NCBI RefSeq assembly: GCF_900089605.1
Contig: NZ_LT594324.1
Span: forward strand, 6,076,001-6,140,000
Direction of reading: 5' to 3'
DNA from: Micromonospora narathiwatensis
GTDB lineage: Bacteria > Actinomycetota > Actinomycetes > Mycobacteriales > Micromonosporaceae
Length of the DNA stretch: 64,000 nt
The stretch's first letter is position 1. Each line of letters starts with the position of its first letter. The notes under the pieces were generated by a model. The model had not been told where the DNA came from. It ran no database searches and worked only from the letters and a program-made list of their open reading frames with translations. Below are positions 37,465 to 53,310 of this stretch, piece after piece. A program made the translations under genes and the position numbers.

Positions 37465-40400
37465 GTGAGCAAACGGCCAAAGACGGCGGGCTCCTTCCTG
37501 TCGCGTCTACGCCGGCCGGCCAGCCGGCTTCGCGACATGCCGATCTGGTCCAAGCTCGGGCTGATCATGATCGTGCCGACCATCGCCACGGTCGTGGTCG
37601 GCACCAGCGGTCTGGTCGACCACCTGGGCACTCTCAACGATGCCAACCGGGCCGGCAACCTGGCCAACCTGATCGGCTACTCGGGTGACCTGGTCGACAC
37701 CCTGCAGGACGAGCGGGTCACGGCCGTGCTCTTCCTCAACGCGGATCGCCCGGGCCAGACCGAGGCCGAGCGGGTCCAGACCAGGGCCCAGTACCAGGAG
37801 GCCTACAGTCGGGCCAACTCCCGGGTCGACCAGCGGAAGGGGCCCTACTCCCGGCAGCGGACCTCGATCAACGGCCTGCCGAAGAACTTCGAGGTTCTGC
37901 TCGACCGGATCGACCAGAACCTCTCCGACCTGCCGGGCACCCGCAGCCAGGTCTTCAACGGCAAGCTCACCATCACCGCCGTGGAGAAGGCGTACGAGGG
38001 TCTGATCAACGACCTGCTCGCGATCCGCGACTCGGCCACCCAGATGGCCGGCGACAACGACCTGAGTGACCGCATGCGCGCCGCCGCCGCGGTCGCCCGG
38101 CAGCGGGAATACCTCTCCCAGCGCCGCGTGGTCGTGCACCAGGCCCTGGTGGGCAAGCGCCTCACCCCGAATCTGCGCGAGCAGTTCATCGCCAGCGAAA
38201 CCGGCCAGTCGCAGGCGTTGCAGAGCTTCAAGGCGGTCGCCACCACGGCCGACGCCGACTACTACGACCAGGTCGTGGCCGGCCCAGACCTGCGCCAGTT
38301 GACCAACTACTCCTCCCAGGTCAACGAGTACCAGGATGGCAGCCTGGCCCGCGTGACGTTCGGACCGGACCAGTGGGACGCCACGGTGGTGGCCAACACC
38401 GGTTTGATCCGGACGGTCGAGGCGAAGCTCGACGACAACGTGGTACGCCAGGCCGACCAGCTCCGCTCGGACACGCAGCGCCAGGTGCTCCTGGAGAGCG
38501 GCCTGCTGTTCGCCATGCTGGTGCTGTCCATCCTCTTCGCCTACCTGGTCGCCCGGTCGATGGCCCGGTCGCTGCGCGAGCTGCGGCAGGGCGCCCTCTC
38601 GGTGGCCCAGTACGGCCTGCCGCAGGCGGTGGCCCGACTGCGCGATCCGCAGGTCACCGGCCAGCTCTCTCCGATCCAGCTGGCCAACCAGATCGCCGAG
38701 CCGCTGCCGGTCCGCAGCAAGGACGAGTTCGGTCAGGTGACCGAGGCGTTCAACGCCGTCCACCTGGAGGCCGTCCGGACCGCCGCCGAGCAGGCCGCCC
38801 TCCGGGCGTCCGTCGCGACGATGTTCGTCAACCTGGCCCGCCGATCGCAGATCCTGGTCGACCGGCTGATCGGCCACCTCGACCGGCTGGAGCGCGGCGA
38901 GGAGGACCCGGACCGGCTGGCCGAGCTGTTCCAGCTCGACCACCTGGCCACCCGGATGCGCCGCAACGACGAGAACCTGCTGGTCCTCGCCGGTGCGGAC
39001 TCCACCCGCGTGCAGCGCGAGCCGGCCGCCCTCATCGACGTGCTCCGCGCCGCCCAGTCCGAGGTCGAGCACTACACCCGGATCGAGTTCGGCGTGATCG
39101 ACCGGGACATCGAGGTCGCGGCCCACGCGGTCAACGACATGGTGCACCTGGTCGCCGAGCTGTTCGACAACGCCACCGCCTTCTCCCCGCCGGACTCGCA
39201 CGTCATGGTGGAGGCCCGGCGGGTGGGCGACCGCGCCTCGCTCTACGTCGAGGACCGGGGCATCGGCATCAGCGGCGAACAGCTGCGTGAGCTGAACGAC
39301 CGGCTCGCCACGCCGCCGCAGGTGGACGTCGCGGTCTCCCGGATGATGGGTCTGGTCGTGGTCGCCCGACTGGCGTCCCGGCACGGGGTCAAGGTCGAGC
39401 TGCGGCCCGGTGCCGACCGGGGCACGGTGGCGGACGTCACACTGCCTACCTCGGTCCTGGTGCCGCGGGCCCTCTCCGGCCGGGGGCAGCAGGTGGCCGC
39501 CCTCCCGGCTGCGGCGAGCAGCCAGCAGCAGGCCGGCGGCCCGGCCCCGGCGTTCGGTGCCCTCGCCGCCTTCGGCAGCGGCCCGAACACCCCGCCGGCC
39601 CCGCGCCCCAGCGCGTCCGGCAACCAGGTGACGCTGGGCGGCCGCTCCTTCGATCCGACGCCGTCCAACGGCTCCGGCATTCCGGCCGCCGCCAGCGGTG
39701 GGCGGTCGATGCCGGCCTGGTCCGACCTCACCGGGGCGACCGGCGGGAGCGGCTTCGCCGGCGGCGAGGCGTTCGCCCCGCGGACGCCTAACGGCCAGCC
39801 GATCGACCCGCTGCCGCAGCGGCGCAGCCCGTCCGAGAGCGACCCGACCGGCACCGGCCAGCAGCCGGCCATCCCGCGCCAGCTGCCGAGCAGCCCCGAG
39901 GCTCGCCCGTACAGCCCGCCGCCGGTCTCCGCGCCGCCGCTGCCGCCGATCTCCGGGGTACCCGTCTCCGCCTCGCCGGTCTCGGGCCAGCCCGTCTCCG
40001 CCGCGCCGGTCTCCGTGCCGCCGCGTCCGGCCCCGCCGGCCCCCGCGCCGAGCTTCGGCGCCCCGCCGGCCTGGCCACCGGTCGCCGCGCCCGATCCGGC
40101 CGCCGCCCCACCGGTGCCGGAGCGTCTCGCCGCCGGCCTCGACATGACCACCGAGCTGCCCCGGGTCGCCCGCCCGGAGATGCCGCCGGCCGTCAACCGG
40201 CCGATGCCGGCGCCGGCGGCTCCGCAGCCGGCTACCCCGCAGCAGGGGGCCAACCGCCAGCGGTACGCGGACGAGACGATGGAGCTGCCGATCTTCCGCG
40301 AGCTCGAGTCGAACTGGTTCCGTACCCGCCGGCCGGGGCCGGAGGAGTCGGCCGCGGCACCTACCCCGGCGGCGAGCGGTGCCCCGACCCAGCAGTTCGC

Positions 40401-40917
40401 CAGGGTCGACGCCGCCGGCCGGGCCGTCCAGCAGACAACACCCGGGACGACAGGTAACACGCCGATGGCACACACTCCGACGGCCGGCGGAGCGCCGTAC
40501 GACAACGGACCGGCGAGCGGGGGCGGGCGTCCCGGTTATGCCGAGGAACTGCCGAACCGGCGGGTGCCACAGCAGTCCGCTGGCTGGCAGACGGCGGCGG
40601 ACGACGGTTGGCGGGCCGCCTCGGCTGCCACCGAGGTGCCGGTCGCCGAGACCACCCAGAAGGGCCTGCCCAAGCGGGTGCCGATGGCGCAGCTCGTCCC
40701 CGGTGGCGTCGAGAAGCCGAGCACGTCGGTGCAGCGCCGGACGCCGGAGGGTGTTCGGGGTCTGCTCTCGGCCTACCATCGGGGCGTACAGCGGGGGCGT
40801 AACCACCCGTCCGACAGCAACTCGGCCGGCCCGGAGGCGACTCTGGGCGGGCAGCAGTCTTCGCAGTCTGGCTCAGGCCCGGTGGCCGGGAGCGGGCAGA
40901 AGGAGCAACAACGATGA
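37465..40917 (+). CDS. Conservon sensor histidine kinase-like protein (CvnA) with NIT domain
   Basis: First component of a conservon (CvnA type), 1150 residues. Span 1 is about 31-50. An extracytoplasmic nitrate/nitrite-sensing-like domain covers about 55-335, with span 2 about 340-365. A HAMP segment follows, then [20 protein letters not shown] (20 residues) with candidate His493, and an HATPase domain (about 550-670; ELFDNA, DRGIGI). A Pro/Ala-rich linker of about 270 residues leads to a conserved tail: [19 protein letters not shown] and [18 protein letters not shown] 37465 with GAGGG. ATGA overlap with cvnB. Confidence 0.92.
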
Positions 40918-41318
40918 CTAGTACGCAGGATCTCGGATGGCTGCTCGCCAACTTCGCCGACCGGGTGCCCGGTGTGGCGCACGCGGTCGCGGTCTCGGCC
41001 GACGGCCTGCTCCTCGCTTCGTCCCGTGACCTTCCGCGGGACCGTGCGGACCAGCTCGCGGCCATCGCGTCCGGCCTGGTCAGCCTGACGCAGGGCGCGG
41101 CCCGTTGCTTCGAGGGCGGGGCGGTGCTGCAGACAGTCGTCGAGATGGACAACGGCTTTCTGTTTCTCATGTCCATTTCGGACGGTTCCTCGTTCGCGGT
41201 GCTCGCCGCGCGGAGTTCCGACGTCGGCCAGGTCGGTTACGAGATGGCTCTGCTCGTCGACCGGGTGGGCGACGCCCTGACCCCGCAGCCGCGTTCGGCT
41301 GTCGGGATGATGGGCTGA
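40914..41318 (+). CDS. Roadblock/LC7 domain protein (CvnB)
   Basis: 134 residues, a single roadblock/LC7 domain ([20 protein letters not shown] is 20 residues; [11 protein letters not shown]). In conservons CvnB binds CvnA and the GTPase CvnD, resembling the regulatory subunits of bacterial small GTPases. It starts inside the cvnA stop codon with AGAAGGAG about 10 nt upstream. Confidence 0.92.
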
Positions 41319-41418
41319 TCGACGCGCTGACCAGTGGGTCAGGAGCGGCAACAACTACGACAACGACGGGTGTCACCGGAACGAGCCGGTACCGGATACG
41401 AAGGAGGTGAGCGGCGAC

Positions 41419-41796
41419 ATGGTCGATCGTGACGAGCCGACCGGCGCGTTGGTCCGTCCATACGCCGTGACCCGAGGTCGTACCCGTCCCCGACTCGAGA
41501 TCGCCTTGGAGGCGCTCGTCGAGACGACGGTGCGCGGCCGGGCCATTGCCACTGGCAATGGCGGCCAGAGCCGTGAGCACCAGTACATCGCCGCGCTGTG
41601 TGACGGACGCGTGCAATCGCTCGCCGAGATCGCGGCGCGGATGCAGCTTCCGCTGGGCGTGGCCCGGGTGCTCATCGCCGACATGGCGACGGACGGCCTG
41701 GTCGCGGTGCACGAGCCGACCATTTTGGACGACTCCGACGACGCGGTGGGCACTGAACTGCTGGAGAGGGTGCTGAGTGGACTTCGCAGGCTCTGA
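41419..41796 (+). CDS. DUF742 protein (CvnC)
   Basis: 125 residues, DUF742: LVRPYAVTRGRTRPRLEIAL (20 residues), then a winged-helix-like part, QYIAALCDGRVQSLAEIAAR (20 residues), MQLPLGVARVLIADMATDGL (20 residues). Third conservon component. ATG 41419 is preferred because AAGGAGG (41401-41407) overlaps the alternative GTG at 41407. Its end overlaps cvnD by 20 nt. Confidence 0.9.
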   Translation: MVDRDEPTGALVRPYAVTRGRTRPRLEIALEALVETTVRGRAIATGNGGQSREHQYIAALCDGRVQSLAEIAARMQLPLGVARVLIADMATDGLVAVHEPTILDDSDDAVGTELLERVLSGLRRL

Positions 41797-42391
41797 CATG
41801 TCGCACCGGCCGCCGGCCCAGAGCGGGCGCGTGACGTCGGCGAAGATCGTTATCGCCGGTGGATTCGGCGTTGGCAAGACGACGCTGGTCGGCTCGGTCT
41901 CGGAGATCACGCCGCTGACCACCGAGGCGATCATGACTTCCGCCGGCGTGGGCGTCGACGACACCCGGCAGGTGCCGGGCAAGACGACGACCACGGTGGC
42001 GATGGACTTCGGTCGTATCTCGATAGACCGTGATCTGATCCTGTACCTTTTCGGTACGCCGGGTCAGACCCGGTTCTGGTTCATGTGGGACGAGTTGGTC
42101 CGCGGTGCCATCGGCGCCGTGGTGCTGGTCGACACCCGTCGACTGGCCGACTGCTTCGCCGCCATCGACTTCTTCGAGCACCGGCGGCTGCCGTACCTGG
42201 TGGCCATCAACTGCTTCGACGGCATGCAGTACCACAACCCGCAGGACGTCCGGGACGCGCTGGCCATCTCCAGCGACGTGCCGGTGGTGGCGTGCGACGC
42301 CCGGAACCGGGAGTCGACCAAGCACGTGCTGATCTCGCTGGTCGAGTACGTGCTCACCATGCGGCGTTCGCGGGCGGTCGCACCCGCCTGA
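41777..42391 (+). CDS. Ras-like small GTPase (CvnD)
   Basis: 204 residues. P-loop GGFGVGKTT (28-36), switch-II region FGTPGQTRFWFMWDE, and CDARNRES as a G5-like loop. The G4 motif reads NCFD, so the Lys of canonical NKxD is Cys. GTG 41777 has GGAGAGGG at 6 nt and is preferred over ATG 41798. It is the output element of the conservon; its effectors are unknown here. A strong terminator follows. Confidence 0.92.
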   Translation: MDFAGSDMSHRPPAQSGRVTSAKIVIAGGFGVGKTTLVGSVSEITPLTTEAIMTSAGVGVDDTRQVPGKTTTTVAMDFGRISIDRDLILYLFGTPGQTRFWFMWDELVRGAIGAVVLVDTRRLADCFAAIDFFEHRRLPYLVAINCFDGMQYHNPQDVRDALAISSDVPVVACDARNRESTKHVLISLVEYVLTMRRSRAVAPA

Positions 42392-42512: not shown

Positions 42513-43733
42513 TCAGGAGTACCGGCTCCAGGCGGCCCGGCTGACCACGTAGACGGCGAGCGAGTCCCGTTCCATGCCGCCGTGGCGGATCGGGGCGAAG
42601 GCGTACCCGCCGGCGATGCCCTCGGTCACCTGGGTCTGGAGGTACGCCCGCAGCCGGCCACGGTCGACGCTGCTCGCCGATCGGGCCGCCGCGGCGAGCA
42701 ACTGGACCGCGTCCGAGCCGTACGGGGCGAAGCCGCTGAAGCTGCCGTGCCGCTGGATGTAGCGGTAGGTGAAGTCCCGTCGGGCCAGTTCCGCGGTGGT
42801 GGTCGCGGTCAGCGTGCTGGCGGCGAGGCAGGACGGGTGCACGGCGTACGCCCCTTCGACGGCGGCGGCGTTGGCCCCGGAGAGGGTGTCCTCGGCGACC
42901 GCGCCCGGGTCGAAGAAGATCGGACCCCGGTGGCCGGCCCGTCGCAGTTCCCGGGCCGCGGCACCGGAGTCCGGGGCGGTGCCCCAGACGATGATCCCGT
43001 CCGGCTCGCCGGCCGTCGTCCGACGGGCGACGGAGGTGAAGCTCCGGCCCGAGGCGGGCAACCGGACGGTGCGTACCAGTGCCACGTCGACGTCGCGCAG
43101 CGCGCTGCGCACCGCCTGCACGCCCGAGTCGCCGTGCAGCCCGGCGGCGGCCAGCACGGCGACCCGCCGGATCCCCAGTGACTCGATCAGGCGGGCCATC
43201 CGGCGGGCCACGTCGCCCGCGTCCGGGGTGAGCTTGTAGATGTACGTGCGCTGAGCCAGCGGAAGTACGATGTCGTCCCCGGCGGCCAGCGACACGAACG
43301 GCACCTGGAGCTTCTGGGCGACCTCGACGATGGCCATGGAGTTCTCCGTGGAGGTGCCGCCGACCAGCGCGTGCACCTGGGTCCGCCGGGTCAGCTCGGT
43401 GGCCTGCCGGGCCGCCTCCTGGGGGTCGCTGCGGTTGTCCCGGAACTCCACCCGGACCGTACGCCGCAGGTTGCCGACCGGGATGCCGGTGAGGTTCAGC
43501 TCCTCCACGGTGATCTCCATGGCCCGTTGCTGAAGTACGCCGAGAGCCGCCCCCTTGCCGGTCAGCTCCAGGCTGGCGCCGATCACCAACTCGTGGCTGT
43601 TGGGCGCGGAGTTGTCGCCGGTCCGGCCGTCGTCCGATTGCTGCCCGCACCCGGCCAGCAGCAGGCTGCCGGCTGCGGCGGCGAGGACGCCCCGACGGGT
43701 AAGCACGGAGGAGTCGAATGCCGGTGTCGCCAT
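42513..43733 (-). CDS. ABC-type ligand-binding lipoprotein (branched-chain amino-acid receptor fold)
   Basis: 406 residues. The N-terminus LTRRGVLAAAAGSLLLAGC combines a twin-arginine-like motif (R13-R14) with a lipobox (LAGC, Cys29), suggesting a Tat-exported lipoprotein. The rest is a Peripla_BP_6 (Leu/Ile/Val receptor-like) domain: ASLELTGKGAALG, VHALVGGTSTENSMAI, VPFVSLAAGDD. No permease or ATPase is nearby, so a sensing role rather than transport is likely. I use ATG 43733. The next gene in the same direction is the 789-residue conservon-tail protein. Confidence 0.85.
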   Translation of the reverse strand: MATPAFDSSVLTRRGVLAAAAGSLLLAGCGQQSDDGRTGDNSAPNSHELVIGASLELTGKGAALGVLQQRAMEITVEELNLTGIPVGNLRRTVRVEFRDNRSDPQEAARQATELTRRTQVHALVGGTSTENSMAIVEVAQKLQVPFVSLAAGDDIVLPLAQRTYIYKLTPDAGDVARRMARLIESLGIRRVAVLAAAGLHGDSGVQAVRSALRDVDVALVRTVRLPASGRSFTSVARRTTAGEPDGIIVWGTAPDSGAAARELRRAGHRGPIFFDPGAVAEDTLSGANAAAVEGAYAVHPSCLAASTLTATTTAELARRDFTYRYIQRHGSFSGFAPYGSDAVQLLAAAARSASSVDRGRLRAYLQTQVTEGIAGGYAFAPIRHGGMERDSLAVYVVSRAAWSRYS

Positions 43734-43862
43734 TGGAATCGCCTTCCCACCCCGGCGACGTCCGCCGCCGGCTGTTCCGCCGGTATGCTCCCGGCCGGCC
43801 CAACCCGGCGTCAAATTATCCGGGTGTGGGCAGAAACACGCAGGTGGGTAGGGCGATTCCGA

Positions 43863-46232
43863 TCAGGACCGGTAGCCGGCGGAACGGTACTCGTATTCCC
43901 GCTCGTCGTCGCGGTCGCCGGTGTCGCGGCTGAAGTCCCAGCCACCGGCGGCCTCCCGCCCCGGACGACCGCCGACGGCGAAGCCGCCGATCTCCTGGCC
44001 GCGACGCCAACCGCGGAAGTAGCCCGTGGTGTTCTCGGCGAGGCTGGCCGCGTTCCGCACGATCCGCAGTGGCCGCTCGTCGCGCAGCGGCGAGCCCGGC
44101 ACCAGGTTGGCCTGCGGGACGCGCTTCGGCAGGCCGGCCTTGGTCTCCGAGCCCACCGCCGGGCGGGCCGCCTGCTCGGCGGCCTGCCAGCCGGTGTCGG
44201 CGGTGCTCGACCAGTCCAGATCGGCGTCGTCGCCGTGCCCGACGAACCAGGCGGACTTCGCCTGGGCGAAGATCAACAGGTCGCCGTCGCCCTCGTCGGA
44301 GACCGGCGGCGGCCGGTGCTCCTTCGGCGCGGGCGGCTGCTCCTGGTCGCGGCGCGGCGCCAGACGTGCCGAGTTGGCGTGGTCGAGGCGCTCCGGCGCG
44401 GCGGGCAGGTCGGCGCGGGGTGCGGGCCGGCCGGACCGGTCGGCCCGCTGCTGGTCGACCAGCCGCAGCGACCGGGCGTCCAGACCTGGGTCGGTCGGCG
44501 GGTCCAACTCCGCACGCAGCGCCCGGTCGGCCAGCGGTGGTGGCTCCACCAGCCGCAGCATCGGTGGCTCCTGGGGCAGGTCGTCGGCGAGCCACGGCGG
44601 GGTGACCCGGCTGGTGCCGGGATCGCTCGGCGCGTCCACGCTCCGGTCGCCGTACGGGTAGCCGGCCGGCGCCTCCACGGCGCGATCGTCCTGCTCGTTG
44701 TTGACCAGCGGCCAGTTGGCGCGGGAACCCGGGGGAGCGGCCTCCTGCCCGGGGCGCGGCGTCGGCACCGGGACGTTCAGATCGGTGGCACTGAAGCCGC
44801 CGGTCGGTGGCTCCTGGGTGGTCTTGGGGCGCGGTGGGATGACCGTGCGCTGGCGCTCGGCGCGGGCCTTGTTGATCGCCGCGGTGGTCAGCGTCGGGCG
44901 GAACGGCTCGCCGGCCTCGGCCGGCGGCACCTTGCTCCGCTGCGCCGGGGCGATCGGGGTGATCCCGGGGGGCGGGGGAGGCGGCGCGGAGATCGGCCGG
45001 TTGGTAGGTCCGTCCACGCGCTGGGGCATCGGCGCGCCGGTCGGCTCGGGACGCGACGGCGGAGCCGAGGTCGGCCGGCCGGCCGCGGCGGCCGGGACGA
45101 CCGGCGCGGGGGCGACGGGCGGCGGTGCGACCGGTGGCGGGGCGACCGGAGGCGGGCCGAGCGGCCGAGGCGACGCCGGTGCGGCCGGCCCGGAGACCGG
45201 CTCGGGGCGGCCGCGTCGGCCCACCGGCTCGGGCTCCGTCGGCCGGACCGACCGCAGACCGGCGCCGGCGTTGGTGGTCTCGGGTCGCTCCTCGACCGAC
45301 TCGCCGCGCCGGGCGGCGGCCCGGCGGCCGGGTGCCGGGGCGGGCGTGCCGACCCGGGCGCTGAGCGCACCCACCAGGGCCTCGCAGCCGGCGTCGCAGG
45401 CCCGTACGGAGGAGACCGCCTGCCGCACCGTCTCGGCGACGGCGGCGGTGAGCGCCCGGTTGACGGTGGCCCGCCGGGGCGTCTCGGCGATGGCGACCCG
45501 CAGCGCGGTCACCGCGTCGTTGATGGTGTCGGCGTCGGCGACGCCCTCGGCCGCCAGGTGCGCGGCGACGGCGTCCGCGGCGACCGACACCTCGCGGCCC
45601 CGGGCCACCGTGCCGCTGAGCATGCCCGGCTCCGGCAGCGCGTCGAGGACGGCCAGGGAGACCGGCTCGGCCGGGTCCGGGTAGGCCCGGAGGGCGGCCG
45701 GGTAGAGCTCGCGGAGCACCTCGCGCAGCGCCACGGCGGCGGAGTGCCGCCCGCTGGCCAGCGCGGCGTGCGCGGCGAGGACCTGCTTGAAGCCGGCCAG
45801 GTCGCGGGGCGCCGGCAGGGTGACCGCGGAGAGGGCGCCGGCCTGCAACGCCCGGGCCAGCCCGACCGCCCGCCGCTCGGCGGGCGGGGACTGCATCTCC
45901 TCCAGCGAGTCGTCGTCGGCGAAGCGCTCGGCGAAGTCGTCGACGGAGTCGTCGTCGGCGATCGCCAGCGGCCGGCCGGCCGCGCTGAGCAGCGAGGTGA
46001 CCGTGTGGTCGTCACTGTCGGCAGCGATGGCCGCACCGCTCGGCCCGCCCGACCGCTCCACGAGCAGCGCGACCAGCTGGGCGTAGCCAGCGGGGTCGTC
46101 GCCGATCTCGCAGACATGCAGCAGACGGCCTGCGTCGTCGACCACAGCGGACGTCAGCGCCGAACCGGCCGAAGCCGGCTGGTCGGCCGGATCCGCCGAG
46201 GCCAGACCGCAGTACACGCGCACGAGCGCCAC
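43863..46232 (-). CDS. Conservon-tail protein with a degenerate IS110-like N-terminal domain
   Basis: 789 residues. About 1-215 read like an IS110/DEDD transposase RuvC-fold domain: LTSAVVDDAGRLLHVCEI, LLSAAGRPLAIADDDSVDDF (20 residues), VGLARALQAGALSAVTLPAP (20 residues), LREVLRELYPAALRAY. The positions expected to hold D, E, D, D are lost: VYCGLAS at the first, IAADSDD at the second, PAERRAVGLA at the last two. About 300-640 is a Pro-rich linker. The end carries the CvnA tail motifs: LLIFAQAKSAWF, GWQAAEQA, GLPKRVPQANLVPG. GTG 46232 follows GGAGGAGG. No signal or span, so cytosolic. Confidence 0.75.
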   Translation of the reverse strand: MALVRVYCGLASADPADQPASAGSALTSAVVDDAGRLLHVCEIGDDPAGYAQLVALLVERSGGPSGAAIAADSDDHTVTSLLSAAGRPLAIADDDSVDDFAERFADDDSLEEMQSPPAERRAVGLARALQAGALSAVTLPAPRDLAGFKQVLAAHAALASGRHSAAVALREVLRELYPAALRAYPDPAEPVSLAVLDALPEPGMLSGTVARGREVSVAADAVAAHLAAEGVADADTINDAVTALRVAIAETPRRATVNRALTAAVAETVRQAVSSVRACDAGCEALVGALSARVGTPAPAPGRRAAARRGESVEERPETTNAGAGLRSVRPTEPEPVGRRGRPEPVSGPAAPASPRPLGPPPVAPPPVAPPPVAPAPVVPAAAAGRPTSAPPSRPEPTGAPMPQRVDGPTNRPISAPPPPPPGITPIAPAQRSKVPPAEAGEPFRPTLTTAAINKARAERQRTVIPPRPKTTQEPPTGGFSATDLNVPVPTPRPGQEAAPPGSRANWPLVNNEQDDRAVEAPAGYPYGDRSVDAPSDPGTSRVTPPWLADDLPQEPPMLRLVEPPPLADRALRAELDPPTDPGLDARSLRLVDQQRADRSGRPAPRADLPAAPERLDHANSARLAPRRDQEQPPAPKEHRPPPVSDEGDGDLLIFAQAKSAWFVGHGDDADLDWSSTADTGWQAAEQAARPAVGSETKAGLPKRVPQANLVPGSPLRDERPLRIVRNAASLAENTTGYFRGWRRGQEIGGFAVGGRPGREAAGGWDFSRDTGDRDDEREYEYRSAGYRS

Positions 46233-46295
46233 GGCGTCGTCCTCCTCCCGGACACAGGGCTTGCTCTGCCAGAGACTGATGCTCCCCGCTACGGG

Positions 46296-47252
46296 TCAGT
46301 CGCGCCAGTCCACAACAGCAGAGATCTTGCCGACAATGGTGCGCCAACCCAAACTTGCGGTCTGTGCCCCGATTTTCTTCAGTCGGCGTCGACCCAGGAA
46401 ACCGCCGATCCCGCCGTTGGTCGTCGCCCGCAGGGCCTCGTCCAGGTCGTCGAGGCTGGAGCCGGCGGAGAGCATGTCCAGTACGGCTGGTAGCCGCAGC
46501 CCGTACGCCACGTCACGGGCGATCTCGCCGGCCTCGATGAGGAGCGTGGCATCCCAGGCGTCGTGGCCGCCGCGGAGGTTCTCCACCACGAGGTCGAGCT
46601 CGTAGGTGTCCTCGTCCAGCGGCGCGATGTCGGCCGGCTCCACCCGTTCGGACAGTTCATTCCAACTGTCCAGTTGAGACAGGTCGTTGGGCGCACCGGA
46701 ACGGACGAAACTGACCAGGGACTCCGGGGTCTTGAACAGCAGCAGCCGGCCACGGTGGCTGAGGAAGATCGGGACCTCCTCGTCGCCGGCGTCGTCTGCC
46801 TCGTCCTCGTCCTCTTCGCCGTCCTCGTCCGCAGCCTCGTCGTCCTCGTCGGCGTCCGTGGCCTCGGCCCCGGCGCGCCGGCGTCCCTTCGGCCGCCCCT
46901 TCCCGGCCTCCTCGTCCTCCTCGGCGGAGAGCGCGGCGAACTCCTCGTCGAGGATCACCACCTCCTCGTCGTCCTCGGTCTCGACGACCTGGCGACGGGC
47001 GAGGAAGGGGTCCTCCTGGTCGCGTTCGGCAACGTCCGTCGGCGTCAGCTCCCGCGCCGGCCGGTACGCCCGGAGGGTGAAGCCGGTGCCGGCGGGCAGG
47101 GCGATCTCCACCGGGTCGATCCGCAGCTCATCCCAGAGCGTGCGGTCCGGGGCCGGGCGATCGGCCTCGACCTCGTCTTCGGCGGCCGACGCGGTGGTGT
47201 CGTCGAGCTCGGGCTCGTCGGCGTCGGGCCGTTGGGGCGACTGGCGGGCCAC
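46296..47252 (-). CDS. Highly acidic conserved protein, unknown function
   Basis: 318 residues. I do not recognise the family. The first half is disordered and acidic, with an Asp/Glu run around 125-165 interrupted by a basic KGRPKGRRRAG patch. The second half is folded: VPIFLSHRGRLLLFKTPESL (20 residues), SWNELSERVEPADI, AWDATLLIEAGEIARDVAYG (20 residues), and a basic GRRRLKKIG near the end. GTG 47252 has GGAGG at 5 nt and is chosen over ATG 47321, which lies on the -10 box. Same direction as the 789-residue gene, 63 bp away. Confidence 0.78.
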   Translation of the reverse strand: MARQSPQRPDADEPELDDTTASAAEDEVEADRPAPDRTLWDELRIDPVEIALPAGTGFTLRAYRPARELTPTDVAERDQEDPFLARRQVVETEDDEEVVILDEEFAALSAEEDEEAGKGRPKGRRRAGAEATDADEDDEAADEDGEEDEDEADDAGDEEVPIFLSHRGRLLLFKTPESLVSFVRSGAPNDLSQLDSWNELSERVEPADIAPLDEDTYELDLVVENLRGGHDAWDATLLIEAGEIARDVAYGLRLPAVLDMLSAGSSLDDLDEALRATTNGGIGGFLGRRRLKKIGAQTASLGWRTIVGKISAVVDWRD

Positions 47253-47321
47253 GCTGACCTCCGTGTGCTTCGGGTTGCCCACCCGGCGACGCCTCCGGCC
47301 GCCGAGTGACTCTGCGCACAT

Positions 47322-48575: not shown

Positions 48576-50630
48576 TCAGGGGGCGAGGGCCAGATAGCCG
48601 CGCTCGGCCGCCGCCTGGAGCAGCCACTGGTCGCGGTACCAGCCCGGCTGCGCCACCAGTTCGTCGTGCCGGCCGCGCTGCACCACTCGGCCGGCGTCGA
48701 GCACCACGATCTCGTCGAGCCCGGCCAGGCCGCTGAGCCGATGGCTGATCAGCAGGACGGAGTGACCGGTCGGGGTGGCGGCCAGCGCCGAGGCGAGCAC
48801 GGCGTCCGCGGCGGCCGGGTCGAGGCCCTCCATCGGCTCGTCCAGCACCAGTACGGCCGGGGCGGCCAGCAGCGCCCGGGCCAGCGCGAGGCGCTGCCGC
48901 TGGCCGCCGGAGAGCTGCCCGCCCTGCTCGCCGACCACGGTGTCCCAGCCGTCGGGCTGGGCGCGTACCCAGTCCAGCAGGCCGGCCGCCCGGGCGGCGG
49001 CGGTCAGCTCCTCCTCGTCGGCCCGCGGCCGGCCGAGCAGCAGGTTGTCCCGTACCGAGGCGTGGAAGACGTACGCCTCGGCGAGCAGGCCGCCGACCAT
49101 CCGGGGCAGTTCCTCGGCCGGGTACGCGGACACGTCCACCCCGTCGAGGGTGACCCGACCGGCATCGGGGCGTACCGCGCCGGTGAGCACGGCGGCCAGG
49201 GTGCTCTTGCCGGCGCCGCTCGGCCCGACCACGGCCACCCGGCGACCCGCGGGCAGGTCCAGGTCGACCCCGTCGAGGGCGGGTGCCGCCCCCTCCCGGT
49301 ACCGCACGGTCACCCCGGCGAACCGCAGGTCGTGCCCGGCGGTCGCCGGGGTGCCCCCGGGGCCGGGACCCGGGCCGGGAGCGGGTGTCGGCGCGGAAGC
49401 GGGCGACGGGCCCGGAGCGGAGGCCGGGGCGGGAGTGGACGGCGGGACGGGCGCGGTCAGGAGGGCGGCCACCCGGGCCAGGCCGGCCCGGAGCTGGGTG
49501 CGCTGCCGGGCGGCCCCGACGAGGGCGAGGGCGATCTCGACGGCGGCCAGGGTGCCGACGGCCAGGACGCCGACCAGCACCCCGCCGACACCCGCGCGCA
49601 GCGCCACCACGACCACGGCCGCGGCGGTCAGCCCGCTCACCAGTACCCCGGTCGCGTCGACCGCGAAGCCGGTCGCGGCGAGCCGGCGTTCCAGCCGGGC
49701 GAGCCGGCGGGCCCGCCCCTCGGCGGCGGTCAGCGCGGTGGCGGTGGCACCGAACGCGGCCAGGTCGGCGGCGCCGTGGGTCAGGTCGACCGCGTCCACG
49801 GCGAGCGCGCCGCGCAGCGGGGCCACCTCGTCGGCGGCACGCCGGGTGAGCGCGGTGGCCAGCGCGGGCAGCCCCACCCCGGCGACCAGCAGCCCGACGG
49901 CGAGCACCCCGGCCGCGGCCGGCGAGATCAGTGCGGCGCCCCCGACGGCGAGCAGGCTGACCAGCGCGGCGGCCGCCCCCGGGACGAGCACCCGGAGCAG
50001 CAGGTCCTGCACCGCCTCCACGTCGGAGACGAGCCGGCTCAGCGCGTCCCCGGTCCGCCGGGCGGCGGTGTCCCGCCGGGTGGTCAGGGTGGCGAAGACC
50101 CGGGCCCGGACGTCGGTGATCATGCGGAGCACCGCGTCGTGCCCGGCGAGTCGTTCGGTGTAGCGGAACACGCCCCGGCTGACGGCGAGGGCCCGGACCG
50201 CGACGATGGCGACGGTCAGCCGGTCCAGCGTCGGCCGCCCGGCGGCGGTCATCAGCAGCCAGGTGGCGGTGGCCATCAGGGCCAGCCCGGCGAACTCGGT
50301 GGCCGCGGCGAGCAGCCCGGCCCCCAGCAGCCGGCCCAGGTACGGTCGCGCCAGCCGCAGCACCGCCCGCTCGGCCCGCGCCCGGCGGTCGCGGGCGGCA
50401 CCGGCGCGCAGGCCGGTCGGGGCCAGCTCGGACGGGTTCGGCTCGGCGGCGGTCGGCGCGCCCGAGTCGCGGGCGGCCGGGCTCACCCCGTCCCGGGAGA
50501 CGCCCCCCGGCACGGCCCGCACCGGCTGGTCGGGGCGCCCCGGCACGACCTCGCCGCCGGAGACGACCTCCGGCTGCGCGGGCCGCCCGGGTGCCGGACC
50601 GTCCCCGGGCTGGTCGGAGCCTCGGCTCAT
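48576..50630 (-). CDS. cydC: Cytochrome bd assembly ABC exporter, CydC subunit
   Basis: 684 residues. With CydD it forms the heterodimeric thiol exporter needed for cytochrome bd assembly. A Pro/Gly-rich N-terminal extension of about 85 residues precedes the membrane domain (about 95-370), then a Pro/Ala-rich linker and the NBD: Walker A GPSGAGKST, signature LSGGQRQRLALARAL and Walker B VLVLDEP. ATG 50630 overlaps the cydD stop (ATGA). Confidence 0.92.
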   Translation of the reverse strand: MSRGSDQPGDGPAPGRPAQPEVVSGGEVVPGRPDQPVRAVPGGVSRDGVSPAARDSGAPTAAEPNPSELAPTGLRAGAARDRRARAERAVLRLARPYLGRLLGAGLLAAATEFAGLALMATATWLLMTAAGRPTLDRLTVAIVAVRALAVSRGVFRYTERLAGHDAVLRMITDVRARVFATLTTRRDTAARRTGDALSRLVSDVEAVQDLLLRVLVPGAAAALVSLLAVGGAALISPAAAGVLAVGLLVAGVGLPALATALTRRAADEVAPLRGALAVDAVDLTHGAADLAAFGATATALTAAEGRARRLARLERRLAATGFAVDATGVLVSGLTAAAVVVVALRAGVGGVLVGVLAVGTLAAVEIALALVGAARQRTQLRAGLARVAALLTAPVPPSTPAPASAPGPSPASAPTPAPGPGPGPGGTPATAGHDLRFAGVTVRYREGAAPALDGVDLDLPAGRRVAVVGPSGAGKSTLAAVLTGAVRPDAGRVTLDGVDVSAYPAEELPRMVGGLLAEAYVFHASVRDNLLLGRPRADEEELTAAARAAGLLDWVRAQPDGWDTVVGEQGGQLSGGQRQRLALARALLAAPAVLVLDEPMEGLDPAAADAVLASALAATPTGHSVLLISHRLSGLAGLDEIVVLDAGRVVQRGRHDELVAQPGWYRDQWLLQAAAERGYLALAP

Positions 50631-52306
50631 CCCGCCACCTTTCCCGCCGGCACCGGGCTCAGCTCGGTCACCCGGCCGTCCTCGACCCGCAGGATCCGGT
50701 CGGCGTCCTCCAGCAGCGCAGGCCGGTGCGCGACCAGCAGCGCGGTACGCCCGGCGACCAGCCGCCGGGTTGCCGCCAGCACGACCGCCTCGCTGGCGGT
50801 GTCCAGCCGGGCGGTCGGCTCGTCGAGGAGCACCAGCGGGGCGTCCCGGACGAACGCGCGGGCCAGCGCCACCCGCTGCCGCTGCCCGCTGGACAGGCCG
50901 TGCCCGCGCTCGCCGAGCGTGGTGGCCAGCCCGTCGGGCAGGGCGGCGACCACCTCGTCCAGCGCCGCGTCGGTGACCGCGCGGGCGAGCGCGGCGTCCG
51001 GGGTGTCGGGCGCGCCGAGGCGGATGTTGTCGGCCAGCGAGCCGGCGAAGAGGTGGGCTCGCTGCGGCACCCAGGCCACCTGGCGCCGCCAGGCGTCGAG
51101 GTCGACGTCGGCGAGGTCCACCCCGTCGACGGTGACCCGGCCGGCGGTCGGGGTGACGAACCCGAGCAGCAGGCCGAGCAGGGTGCTCTTGCCGGCGCCG
51201 CTGGGCCCGATGACGGCGACCCGCTCGCCGGGGCGGATGGTGAGGGTCACGTCCCGCAGCGCGGTGGTCCGCTCGTACTCGACGGTGACGCCCTCGAAAC
51301 GGATCTCGCCGGACCCGGCCGGGGCCGGCCGCCGCCCGCCGGTCGGCGCGGTGGGCGCCGGCCCGGCGGAGACGCTGAGCGCCTCGTCCAGCGCGGTCAG
51401 CCCCTCCATGCTGGCGTGGAACCGGCTCCCCGCCGCCCGCAGCGGCAGGTACGCCTCCGGCGTGAGCAGCAGCACCAGCAGTGCGGTGGAGAGGGTGATC
51501 CCGCCGCCGAGCAGCCGGATGCCCACCGGCACCGCGACCAGCGCCACCGAGAGGGTGGCGACCAGTTCGAGGACCAGCGCGGAGAGGAATGCGATCCGCA
51601 GCGTCTTCATGGTGGCCTGGCGGTGCCCGTCGGCCATCCGGCGTACCACGTCGACCTGGGCCCGGGCCCGGCCGAACGCGCGCAGCGTGGGCAGCCCGGC
51701 CACCATGTCGAGGAAGTGCCCGCCGAGCAGCGACAGCCGCCGCCACTGCCGCTCGGTGGCGGCCTGCGCCTGCCAGCCGAGCAGGGCGCCGAAGATCGGG
51801 ATGAGCGGGATGGTCAGCGCGATGATCACCGCCGAACTCCAGTCGGCGAGGACGATCCGGGCCAGCACGGCCAGCGGCACGGTCACGCTCAGCACGAGCT
51901 GCGGCAGGTAGCCGGTGAAGTAGGGGTCGAGCGCGTCCAGCCCGCGCCCGGCGAGGGTGGCGAGCTGCCCGGCCCGCTGGCCGGCCACCCAGGTGGGCCC
52001 GTGCCGGCCGACCGCGCCGAGCAGGTCGGCGCGGAGCGTGGCCTTCACCGTCGCCGCCGCCCGGGCCGCCACCGTGCCCTGCGCCCAGCTCACCAGCGCC
52101 CGGCCGGCGACCGCCGCCACGAAGCCGGCCAGCGCCGGCCGGTGCAGCCGCCCGTCGACCGCCGCCGCCAGCAGCGTGGCCAGCGCGGTGGCCTGCGCGA
52201 CCACCAGCAGCGCGGTCAACCCGCCCGACACCGCGAGCATGGCGAGGTCGCGCCGGGCCGCGGGGACCCGGCGCAGCAGCCGCGGGTCGAACGGACGGCG
52301 GTTCAC
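50627..52306 (-). CDS. cydD: Cytochrome bd assembly ABC exporter, CydD subunit
   Basis: 559 residues. Membrane domain about 20-320, then NBD: Walker A GPSGAGKST, Q-loop WVPQRAHLF, signature LSSGQRQRVALARAF, Walker B LVLLDEPTARL. I use GTG 52306, which overlaps the cydB stop in GTGA; upstream frames would run into cydB. Third gene of cydABDC. Confidence 0.93.
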   Translation of the reverse strand: MNRRPFDPRLLRRVPAARRDLAMLAVSGGLTALLVVAQATALATLLAAAVDGRLHRPALAGFVAAVAGRALVSWAQGTVAARAAATVKATLRADLLGAVGRHGPTWVAGQRAGQLATLAGRGLDALDPYFTGYLPQLVLSVTVPLAVLARIVLADWSSAVIIALTIPLIPIFGALLGWQAQAATERQWRRLSLLGGHFLDMVAGLPTLRAFGRARAQVDVVRRMADGHRQATMKTLRIAFLSALVLELVATLSVALVAVPVGIRLLGGGITLSTALLVLLLTPEAYLPLRAAGSRFHASMEGLTALDEALSVSAGPAPTAPTGGRRPAPAGSGEIRFEGVTVEYERTTALRDVTLTIRPGERVAVIGPSGAGKSTLLGLLLGFVTPTAGRVTVDGVDLADVDLDAWRRQVAWVPQRAHLFAGSLADNIRLGAPDTPDAALARAVTDAALDEVVAALPDGLATTLGERGHGLSSGQRQRVALARAFVRDAPLVLLDEPTARLDTASEAVVLAATRRLVAGRTALLVAHRPALLEDADRILRVEDGRVTELSPVPAGKVAG

Positions 52307-53310
52307 CAGTACACCGGTGCCCTGCCGTCGGTCCGTCCCCGGAACACCCACCAGCACATCGCCTGAAAGCCTAGTAGGGCCGGCAGCAGCGGCAGCACGA
52401 GCCAGCCGAGCAGGGACAGCGTGGGCCCGCTCGCCGCGGCGTCGGCGACGGTCAACGAGATGCCCGGGTCGCCGGTGGAGACCAGCACCCGGGGCCAGAG
52501 GGCGGCGCCGACCAGCACCACCGGCAGCGCCAGCGCGGCGCTGCTCGCCGCGAAGGACACCCCGGGTCGGCCCCGGCCGAGCGCCGCACGGGCCACCAGC
52601 AGCGCCGCGACCAGCGCCAACGGCAGGAGTACGGCGACCGCCGGCCGCGCCACGGCGGCGCGTACCCGATCGGAGAGCAGGCCCAGGACGGTGGCCGTGG
52701 CGACCGCGGCGAGCGCCGCCGGCACCAGGCCGCGGGCCAGCCGGGCGACCGGCGGTACGTCGGCGGCCGGCAGCCGGAGGGTGAGGAAGGTCGCACCGTG
52801 CACGGCGATCAGCGCCAGCATCGCGAGCGCGGTGGCGGCCACGAACGGGGTGAAGAGGTGGGCCACCCCGGCGACGTGCCCGTCGGATCGCAGCGGTACC
52901 CCTTGCAGCAGCCCGCCGAGCAGGGCACCCCAGCCGAGGGCGGCGAGCGCGCTGCCGGCCACCACCGTCCGGTCCCAGCCGGCGCGGGCCGACTCGGCGC
53001 GTGGCCGGCTGCGCAGTTGCACCCCGGCGGTCACCAGCACCACCCCGGTGACCGCGCCGAGCACGGCCGGGTAGAAGCCGGCGAGCAGTTCGCCCTCCAG
53101 CGTCGGGAAAGCGCCGAAAAGGATGCCGACGGCGGCCACCAGCCAGACCTCGTTGCCGAGGAAGAACGGCCCGACGGCGGTGAGTGCGGCGCGTCGGGCG
53201 GCCGGGGCCGCGCCGCGGGCGAGCAGCAGCCCGACACCGTAGTCGTAGCCGCCGAGGACGAGGTAGCCGGCGAAGAAGAGGCCGAGCAGGGCGTACCAGG
53301 CGAGTTCCAC
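52303..53310 (-). CDS. cydB: Cytochrome bd ubiquinol/menaquinol oxidase subunit II
   Basis: 335 residues, about nine membrane spans. The N-terminal pattern WYALLGLFFAGYLVLGGYDY (20 residues), then GPFFLGNEVWLVAAVG and the C-terminal FQAMCWWVFRGR. Heterodimer partner of CydA in the high-affinity terminal oxidase. ATG 53310 lies 10 bp after the cydA stop. Confidence 0.94.
   Translation of the reverse strand: MELAWYALLGLFFAGYLVLGGYDYGVGLLLARGAAPAARRAALTAVGPFFLGNEVWLVAAVGILFGAFPTLEGELLAGFYPAVLGAVTGVVLVTAGVQLRSRPRAESARAGWDRTVVAGSALAALGWGALLGGLLQGVPLRSDGHVAGVAHLFTPFVAATALAMLALIAVHGATFLTLRLPAADVPPVARLARGLVPAALAAVATATVLGLLSDRVRAAVARPAVAVLLPLALVAALLVARAALGRGRPGVSFAASSAALALPVVLVGAALWPRVLVSTGDPGISLTVADAAASGPTLSLLGWLVLPLLPALLGFQAMCWWVFRGRTDGRAPVYW

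Follow-up and report, generated by a model that had tools for sequence, protein, structure and literature searches.

Introduction

IS110 transposases/recombinases (PF01548 and PF02371; IS621, ISCro4) carry a RuvC-like domain, a coiled coil and a C-terminal Tnp domain with a catalytic serine. RuvC folds that were retained after catalysis was lost are described for TldR, a dead TnpB (PMC13418256), and for Nop5 of box C/D ribonucleoproteins (PMC12045711), both of which act with RNA. Conservons, on the other side, are actinobacterial G-protein systems with the core CvnA-D. In a 2026 conservon paper (PMC13343842), only CvnE and CvnF are recognised as accessories, which accompany CvnA proteins without a sensory domain; CvnB is proposed there to connect the sensor with the GTPase, and its homologue MfpD is described as the GTPase-activating protein (GAP) for its own GTPase. 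Here we analyse a gene from a stretch of 64,000 nucleotides of Micromonospora narathiwatensis (GCF_900089605.1, contig NZ_LT594324.1, positions 6,076,001 to 6,140,000; hereafter the window), the product of which joins a head related to IS110 transposases to a tail shared with CvnA. The head is well supported as an IS110 RuvC domain that has lost catalysis and been domesticated, and we favour the view that the transposase fragment works as a component of the conservon, with its tail docking the roadblock protein.

The protein resembles IS110 transposases in the succession of RuvC-like domain and coiled coil, with a significant profile and fold match. Unlike these enzymes it has neither the catalytic acids nor the Tnp domain, its coiled coil is acidic, a long linker and a signalling tail have been added, and the gene is found as a single strong copy in the chromosome, in conserved synteny. 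With CvnA histidine kinases it has in common the C-terminal boxes and, in 17 genomes that do not include Micromonospora, the position directly upstream of a roadblock gene; in contrast to CvnA it has no NIT, HAMP or HATPase domain according to Pfam and lacks the transmembrane body of the kinase, in place of which the dead transposase domain forms the head. Like CvnE and CvnF (P450, GAF) it is an extra protein linked to the CvnA-D core. However, no P450 or GAF domain was matched in the window protein by Pfam up to E 10, and the neighbouring CvnA does possess a NIT domain. All features are listed in Table 1.

Table 1. Features of the window and of two further loci (positions refer to the window unless a locus, L042 or L146, is named).
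Feature	Position	Strand	Remarks
Whole gene: dead IS110 RuvC domain, coiled coil, Pro-rich linker, CvnA-like tail	43863..46232	-	789 residues, GTG start
RuvC-like (RNase H fold) domain, residues 1-141	45810..46232	-	
Four former catalytic columns, span	45870..46202	-	A11, D72, A118 and R121 in place of D, E, D and D
Long-helix coiled coil, residues 142-294	45351..45809	-	Matches the IS110 coiled coil, minus its positive charge
Pro-rich linker (24% Pro), residues 295-645	44298..45350	-	Least conserved part; looks disordered; occupies the place of the IS110 Tnp domain
CvnA-like tail, residues 646-755	43968..44297	-	Boxes LLIF..SAWF, W..AD.GW.AA, GLPKRVPQANLVPG, Y.RG.RRG
Likely ribosome-binding site, GGAGGAGG	46241..46248	-	Read from the sequence just upstream of the ORF
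CvnA-type histidine kinase	37465..40917	+	NIT, HATPase_c, HAMP just below cut-off; own tail about 40234-40809
CvnB-type roadblock/LC7 protein	40914..41318	+	Pfam; proposed tail partner in this genome
CvnC (DUF742)	41407..41796	+	Pfam
CvnD small GTPase	41777..42391	+	Best Pfam match ATP_bind_1
Peripla_BP_6 substrate-binding protein gene	42513..43814	-	Pfam; optional neighbour, in 23/58 loci
Upstream neighbour, SatS-chaperone-like	46296..47321	-	Weak match (E 2e-10); probably same operon
Roadblock/LC7 gene, CvnB paralogue, directly downstream of family gene	L146:10811-11207		Start approximate
Roadblock/LC7 gene, CvnB paralogue, directly downstream of family gene	L042:11018-11440		

Relationship of the Head to IS110 Transposases

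The first-pass annotation, made from the window sequence, had located the open reading frame (ORF) correctly. It read the product as a decayed IS110/DEDD-like domain fused to a signalling tail and proposed a comparison of hidden Markov models (HMMs), a structure comparison and a genome survey as checks. With Pfam itself the relationship stays below the cut-off: the window protein matches DEDD_Tnp_IS110 weakly (E 0.14, 12.3 bits, cut-off 29; residues 28-178 on profile positions 12-155 of 155), the N-terminal domain alone reaches E 0.0096, and four of 11 family members are matched, the best at E 6.4e-4. An NCBIfam scan of the window protein gave no match. A single-sequence search with residues 1-294 recovered IS110 transposases of the same order, among them a fragment of 195 residues (E 1.6e-11) and intact enzymes of 418-421 residues (about 1e-8). 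Searched against 200 genomes, the same segment matched 36, namely 24 with close relatives of the fusion, five with distant relatives and seven with IS110s only; the family profile reached IS110s of the same class at E values down to 2.3e-31.

Profile-profile alignment by hhalign was significant. The family profile aligned with an IS110 profile at 98.4% (E 7.2e-15), and a broader comparison of 17 family members with four IS110s gave 99.3% (E 2.8e-20, residues 3-272); the controls for the latter gave 0.1% with a reversed profile and at most 0.4% in 30 column shuffles. The aligned set of four IS110s used here, taken from the matches to residues 1-294, recovers IS621 and ISCro4 in the PDB. The predicted fold of the head resembles the IS110 RuvC-like domain in structure comparison, so that the proposed IS110-like head is backed by both kinds of evidence. 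The first of the two alignments ends at residue 292, just before the IS110 Tnp domain, and PF02371, which represents this domain, was not matched in the window protein by Pfam up to E 10. In an unrooted tree, 47 family rows were split from 17 IS110 rows by a branch with 100/100 support. Since the catalytic acids are lost and the distribution is narrow, we infer that the family descended from IS110 and not the reverse.

Loss of the Catalytic Site

The statement of the first-pass annotation that all four catalytic positions are changed is true for the window protein, with the nuance that the exchange of E for D at D72 leaves this position acidic. For the family as a whole we counted the four columns in 131 distinct members (longer than 255 residues, those identical in the first 200 residues removed). 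The first D is kept in none of them. The second column, E in IS110, holds E in two and D in 122 members, i.e., an acid in 124/131; the third D is kept in four (E in two further ones), and the fourth likewise in four, with R in 118. Counted per protein, six members retain no acid, 116 retain one and nine retain two. More than two were never found, and hence no examined member has all four. In the IS110 comparison set, 15 of 16 proteins carry four acids and one carries three. In the family, a conserved surface involving R127, G132 and the region P178-P187 presumably takes the place of the metal site.

Conservation and Selection

The fusion was then surveyed in 354 genomes of the Micromonosporaceae. 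A match was obtained in 348 genomes, 347 of them at E<=1.5e-36, and the search tool counted 43 of 44 genera as represented; six genomes gave no match, and one (G376) gave matches of IS110 strength only. In a repeat search of single genomes chosen to represent most genera, a single strong copy was present in each of 41 genomes (40 genera); one of these (G491) contains six equal-scoring IS110 copies in addition. Mobility in the form of multiple or variably placed copies was thus not seen in the 41 genomes, and the synteny is fixed. All 80 named loci with the family gene derive from Micromonosporaceae or actinobacterial bins.

The ratio of non-synonymous to synonymous substitution rates (dN/dS; 16 same-genus genes, 120 pairs) was 0.089 for the RuvC domain, 0.190 for the coiled coil, 0.316 for the linker and 0.077 for the tail, i.e., purifying selection is strongest in the RuvC domain and the tail. 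The word “decayed” is therefore wrong for this gene, which is under purifying selection, occurs in 347/354 genomes and is strongly syntenic. The other part of the earlier description, a domesticated and inactive transposase fold, is well supported, because the profile and fold match, the loss of acids in the 131 members, the single copy, the 100/100 branch and the purifying selection all point to it.

A Tail Shared with CvnA

Over its final 110 residues the protein is similar to the C-terminus of the neighbouring CvnA (BLASTP E 2e-9, 41% over 76 residues); such a tail is not a published criterion for CvnA kinases. Across 86 loci, a tail-only HMM gave 137 domain rows outside the ORFs of the family. 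Of these rows, 119 sit in ORFs tied to CvnA by BLASTP; most others belong to truncated ORFs, and one represents the displaced tail from the Phytohabitans flavus locus (L152). The conservon tail of the first-pass annotation is accordingly real and CvnA-like. A search of the M. narathiwatensis genome with the tail profile returned the window protein, the CvnA next to it (E 1.5e-40) and matches at 4624218 (3.5e-24), 3431843 (1.2e-4) and 3264431 (8.4e-4); this CvnA and the three matches are each followed closely by a roadblock gene. A further match at 537896 (E 9.0e-4) was judged by eye to be in the wrong frame. Among the 80 loci the tail motif is absent from 15, and in 13 of these the sequence stops no more than 391 bases from the domain match. 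In P. flavus the head and the tail are in separate ORFs, the frame being broken in the record, and the full-length member of Catelliglobosispora koreensis (L122, 717 residues) has a tail in which the GLP-box was not found by pattern.

Genomic Neighbourhood

Synteny was counted over the 80 loci, 78 of which extend at least 1.3 kb upstream and 58 at least 9 kb downstream. The SatS-like gene adjoins upstream on the same strand in 78/78 loci, and a complete convergent cvnA-D set follows downstream in 56/58; of the other two loci, L190 has three of the four genes and L146 none. A roadblock gene of CvnB type lies directly downstream on the same strand in 21 rows, corresponding to 17 mostly deep-branching genomes, and Robl_LC7 was confirmed by Pfam in both such genes scanned. 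These dedicated roadblock proteins share about 40-43% identity with the window's CvnB, and the M. narathiwatensis genome encodes no roadblock protein closer to them. Three loci (L041, L044, L117) contain both the dedicated roadblock gene and a conservon. Because the paired rows are the deep branches of the tree plus L100, which is sister to the remaining rows, the pair of family gene and roadblock gene looks ancestral, with a single later loss of the roadblock gene (parsimony by eye).

Some neighbouring genes deserve mention. The product of the SatS-like gene, which weakly resembles a protein export chaperone, is acid-rich and may belong to the same system. The Peripla_BP_6 gene between family gene and conservon encodes a possible ligand sensor. 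Further upstream, at 48576-52366 on the minus strand, two ABC-exporter-like half transporters are encoded, which are CydDC-like by eye.

Discussion

The tail common to CvnA, the syntenic conservon in 56/58 loci and the adjoining roadblock gene in 17 genomes suggest that the protein probably has a role in signal transduction and not in DNA movement. The first-pass annotation had supposed such a role, for which genomic context now speaks. Since tail-bearing proteins are encoded directly upstream of roadblock genes, CvnA in the conservon and the family protein in the 17 genomes, the tail may be a docking segment for the CvnB-type, GAP-like roadblock protein. The dead RuvC/coiled-coil head would then be a protein- or ligand-binding, oligomerising input domain or scaffold, and the family protein would compete with or complement CvnA in the control of the GAP and hence of the CvnD GTPase. 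As no dedicated roadblock gene follows the family gene in Micromonospora, the neighbouring CvnB is the likely partner there. More tentatively, the family could represent a second receptor class for bacterial Ras-like G-protein systems, in which a dead IS110 head is attached to the roadblock-docking tail that in CvnA belongs to a histidine-kinase head. It would form a two-gene module of its own with a dedicated roadblock GAP in deep-branching Micromonosporaceae and share CvnB with the kinase in Micromonospora. What the head senses may be a ligand or the condition of cellular DNA or RNA.

Several observations weigh against an IS110-derived conservon component. Foldseek gave no match at E < 0.001, the best being IS621 at 0.014, and the family profile found none of the PDB sequences at E<=1. 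Of the nine roadblock matches in the M. narathiwatensis genome, only four are directly preceded by a tail that can be detected. L042 and L146 contain no conservon within about 9 kb downstream, their DUF742 genes being located elsewhere in the genomes. In Micromonospora no roadblock gene adjoins the family gene, which is convergent with the conservon and therefore not co-transcribed with it.

An alternative is that the protein is a scaffold unlinked to the conservon next to it, and that it serves a different roadblock/GTPase pair or the SatS-like gene upstream. The SatS-like gene is indeed the steadier neighbour (78/78 loci), and the family gene persists without a conservon next door in L042 and L146. 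We nevertheless regard this as unlikely, given that the tail is common to CvnA and that a CvnB-like gene directly follows the family gene even in these two loci.

It is also rather improbable that the IS110-derived protein still binds nucleic acids, either DNA junctions or a guide RNA. In that case it would be a regulator guided by RNA or DNA but devoid of nuclease activity, comparable to TldR or Nop5, and the tail would connect it to the G-protein system. The retained RuvC fold is shared with these proteins, but the charge of the family protein argues against RNA, and its ties are to G-protein signalling. With IS110 domains cut at fixed lengths from the motif, the coiled coil has a mean net charge of -2.4 and an isoelectric point of 6.1 in 47 members as compared to +6.8 and 10.6 in 13 IS110s, and the RuvC part is more acidic as well (-10.8 versus -3.8). 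Moreover, the flanking gaps of 63 and 48 bases seem unlikely to accommodate a bridge RNA, and Rfam gave no match at gathering scores, with its coverage of bridge RNAs unchecked and no dedicated RNA model run. The lost positive charge, the apparent lack of room for a bridge RNA and the missing Rfam match together make RNA-guided action less likely. That the gene is a functionless relic of a decaying transposase, fused by chance to a signalling tail, might be read from the four altered catalytic positions and the automatic annotation as transposase, but is regarded as already refuted by the dN/dS of 0.09 in the RuvC part and 0.08 in the tail (120 pairs, 16 sequences), the presence in 347/354 genomes and the conserved synteny.

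A conservon component with a domesticated IS110 head thus remains our preferred reading. A literature search, which included the combination of conservon and transposase and lay outside most subscription journals, yielded no description of such a protein, and the word “transposase” is absent from the main text of the 2026 conservon paper (PMC13343842). Among the close relatives listed, most are labelled “transposase” by NCBI. If the reading is true, this automatic label conceals a signalling role, and the dead IS110 head joins the known cases of RuvC-fold reuse. The shared tail would provide a directly testable handle on conservon input and roadblock docking. A transposase fold would then have been recruited to bacterial G-protein signalling and retained by almost every member sampled from a large family of antibiotic producers.
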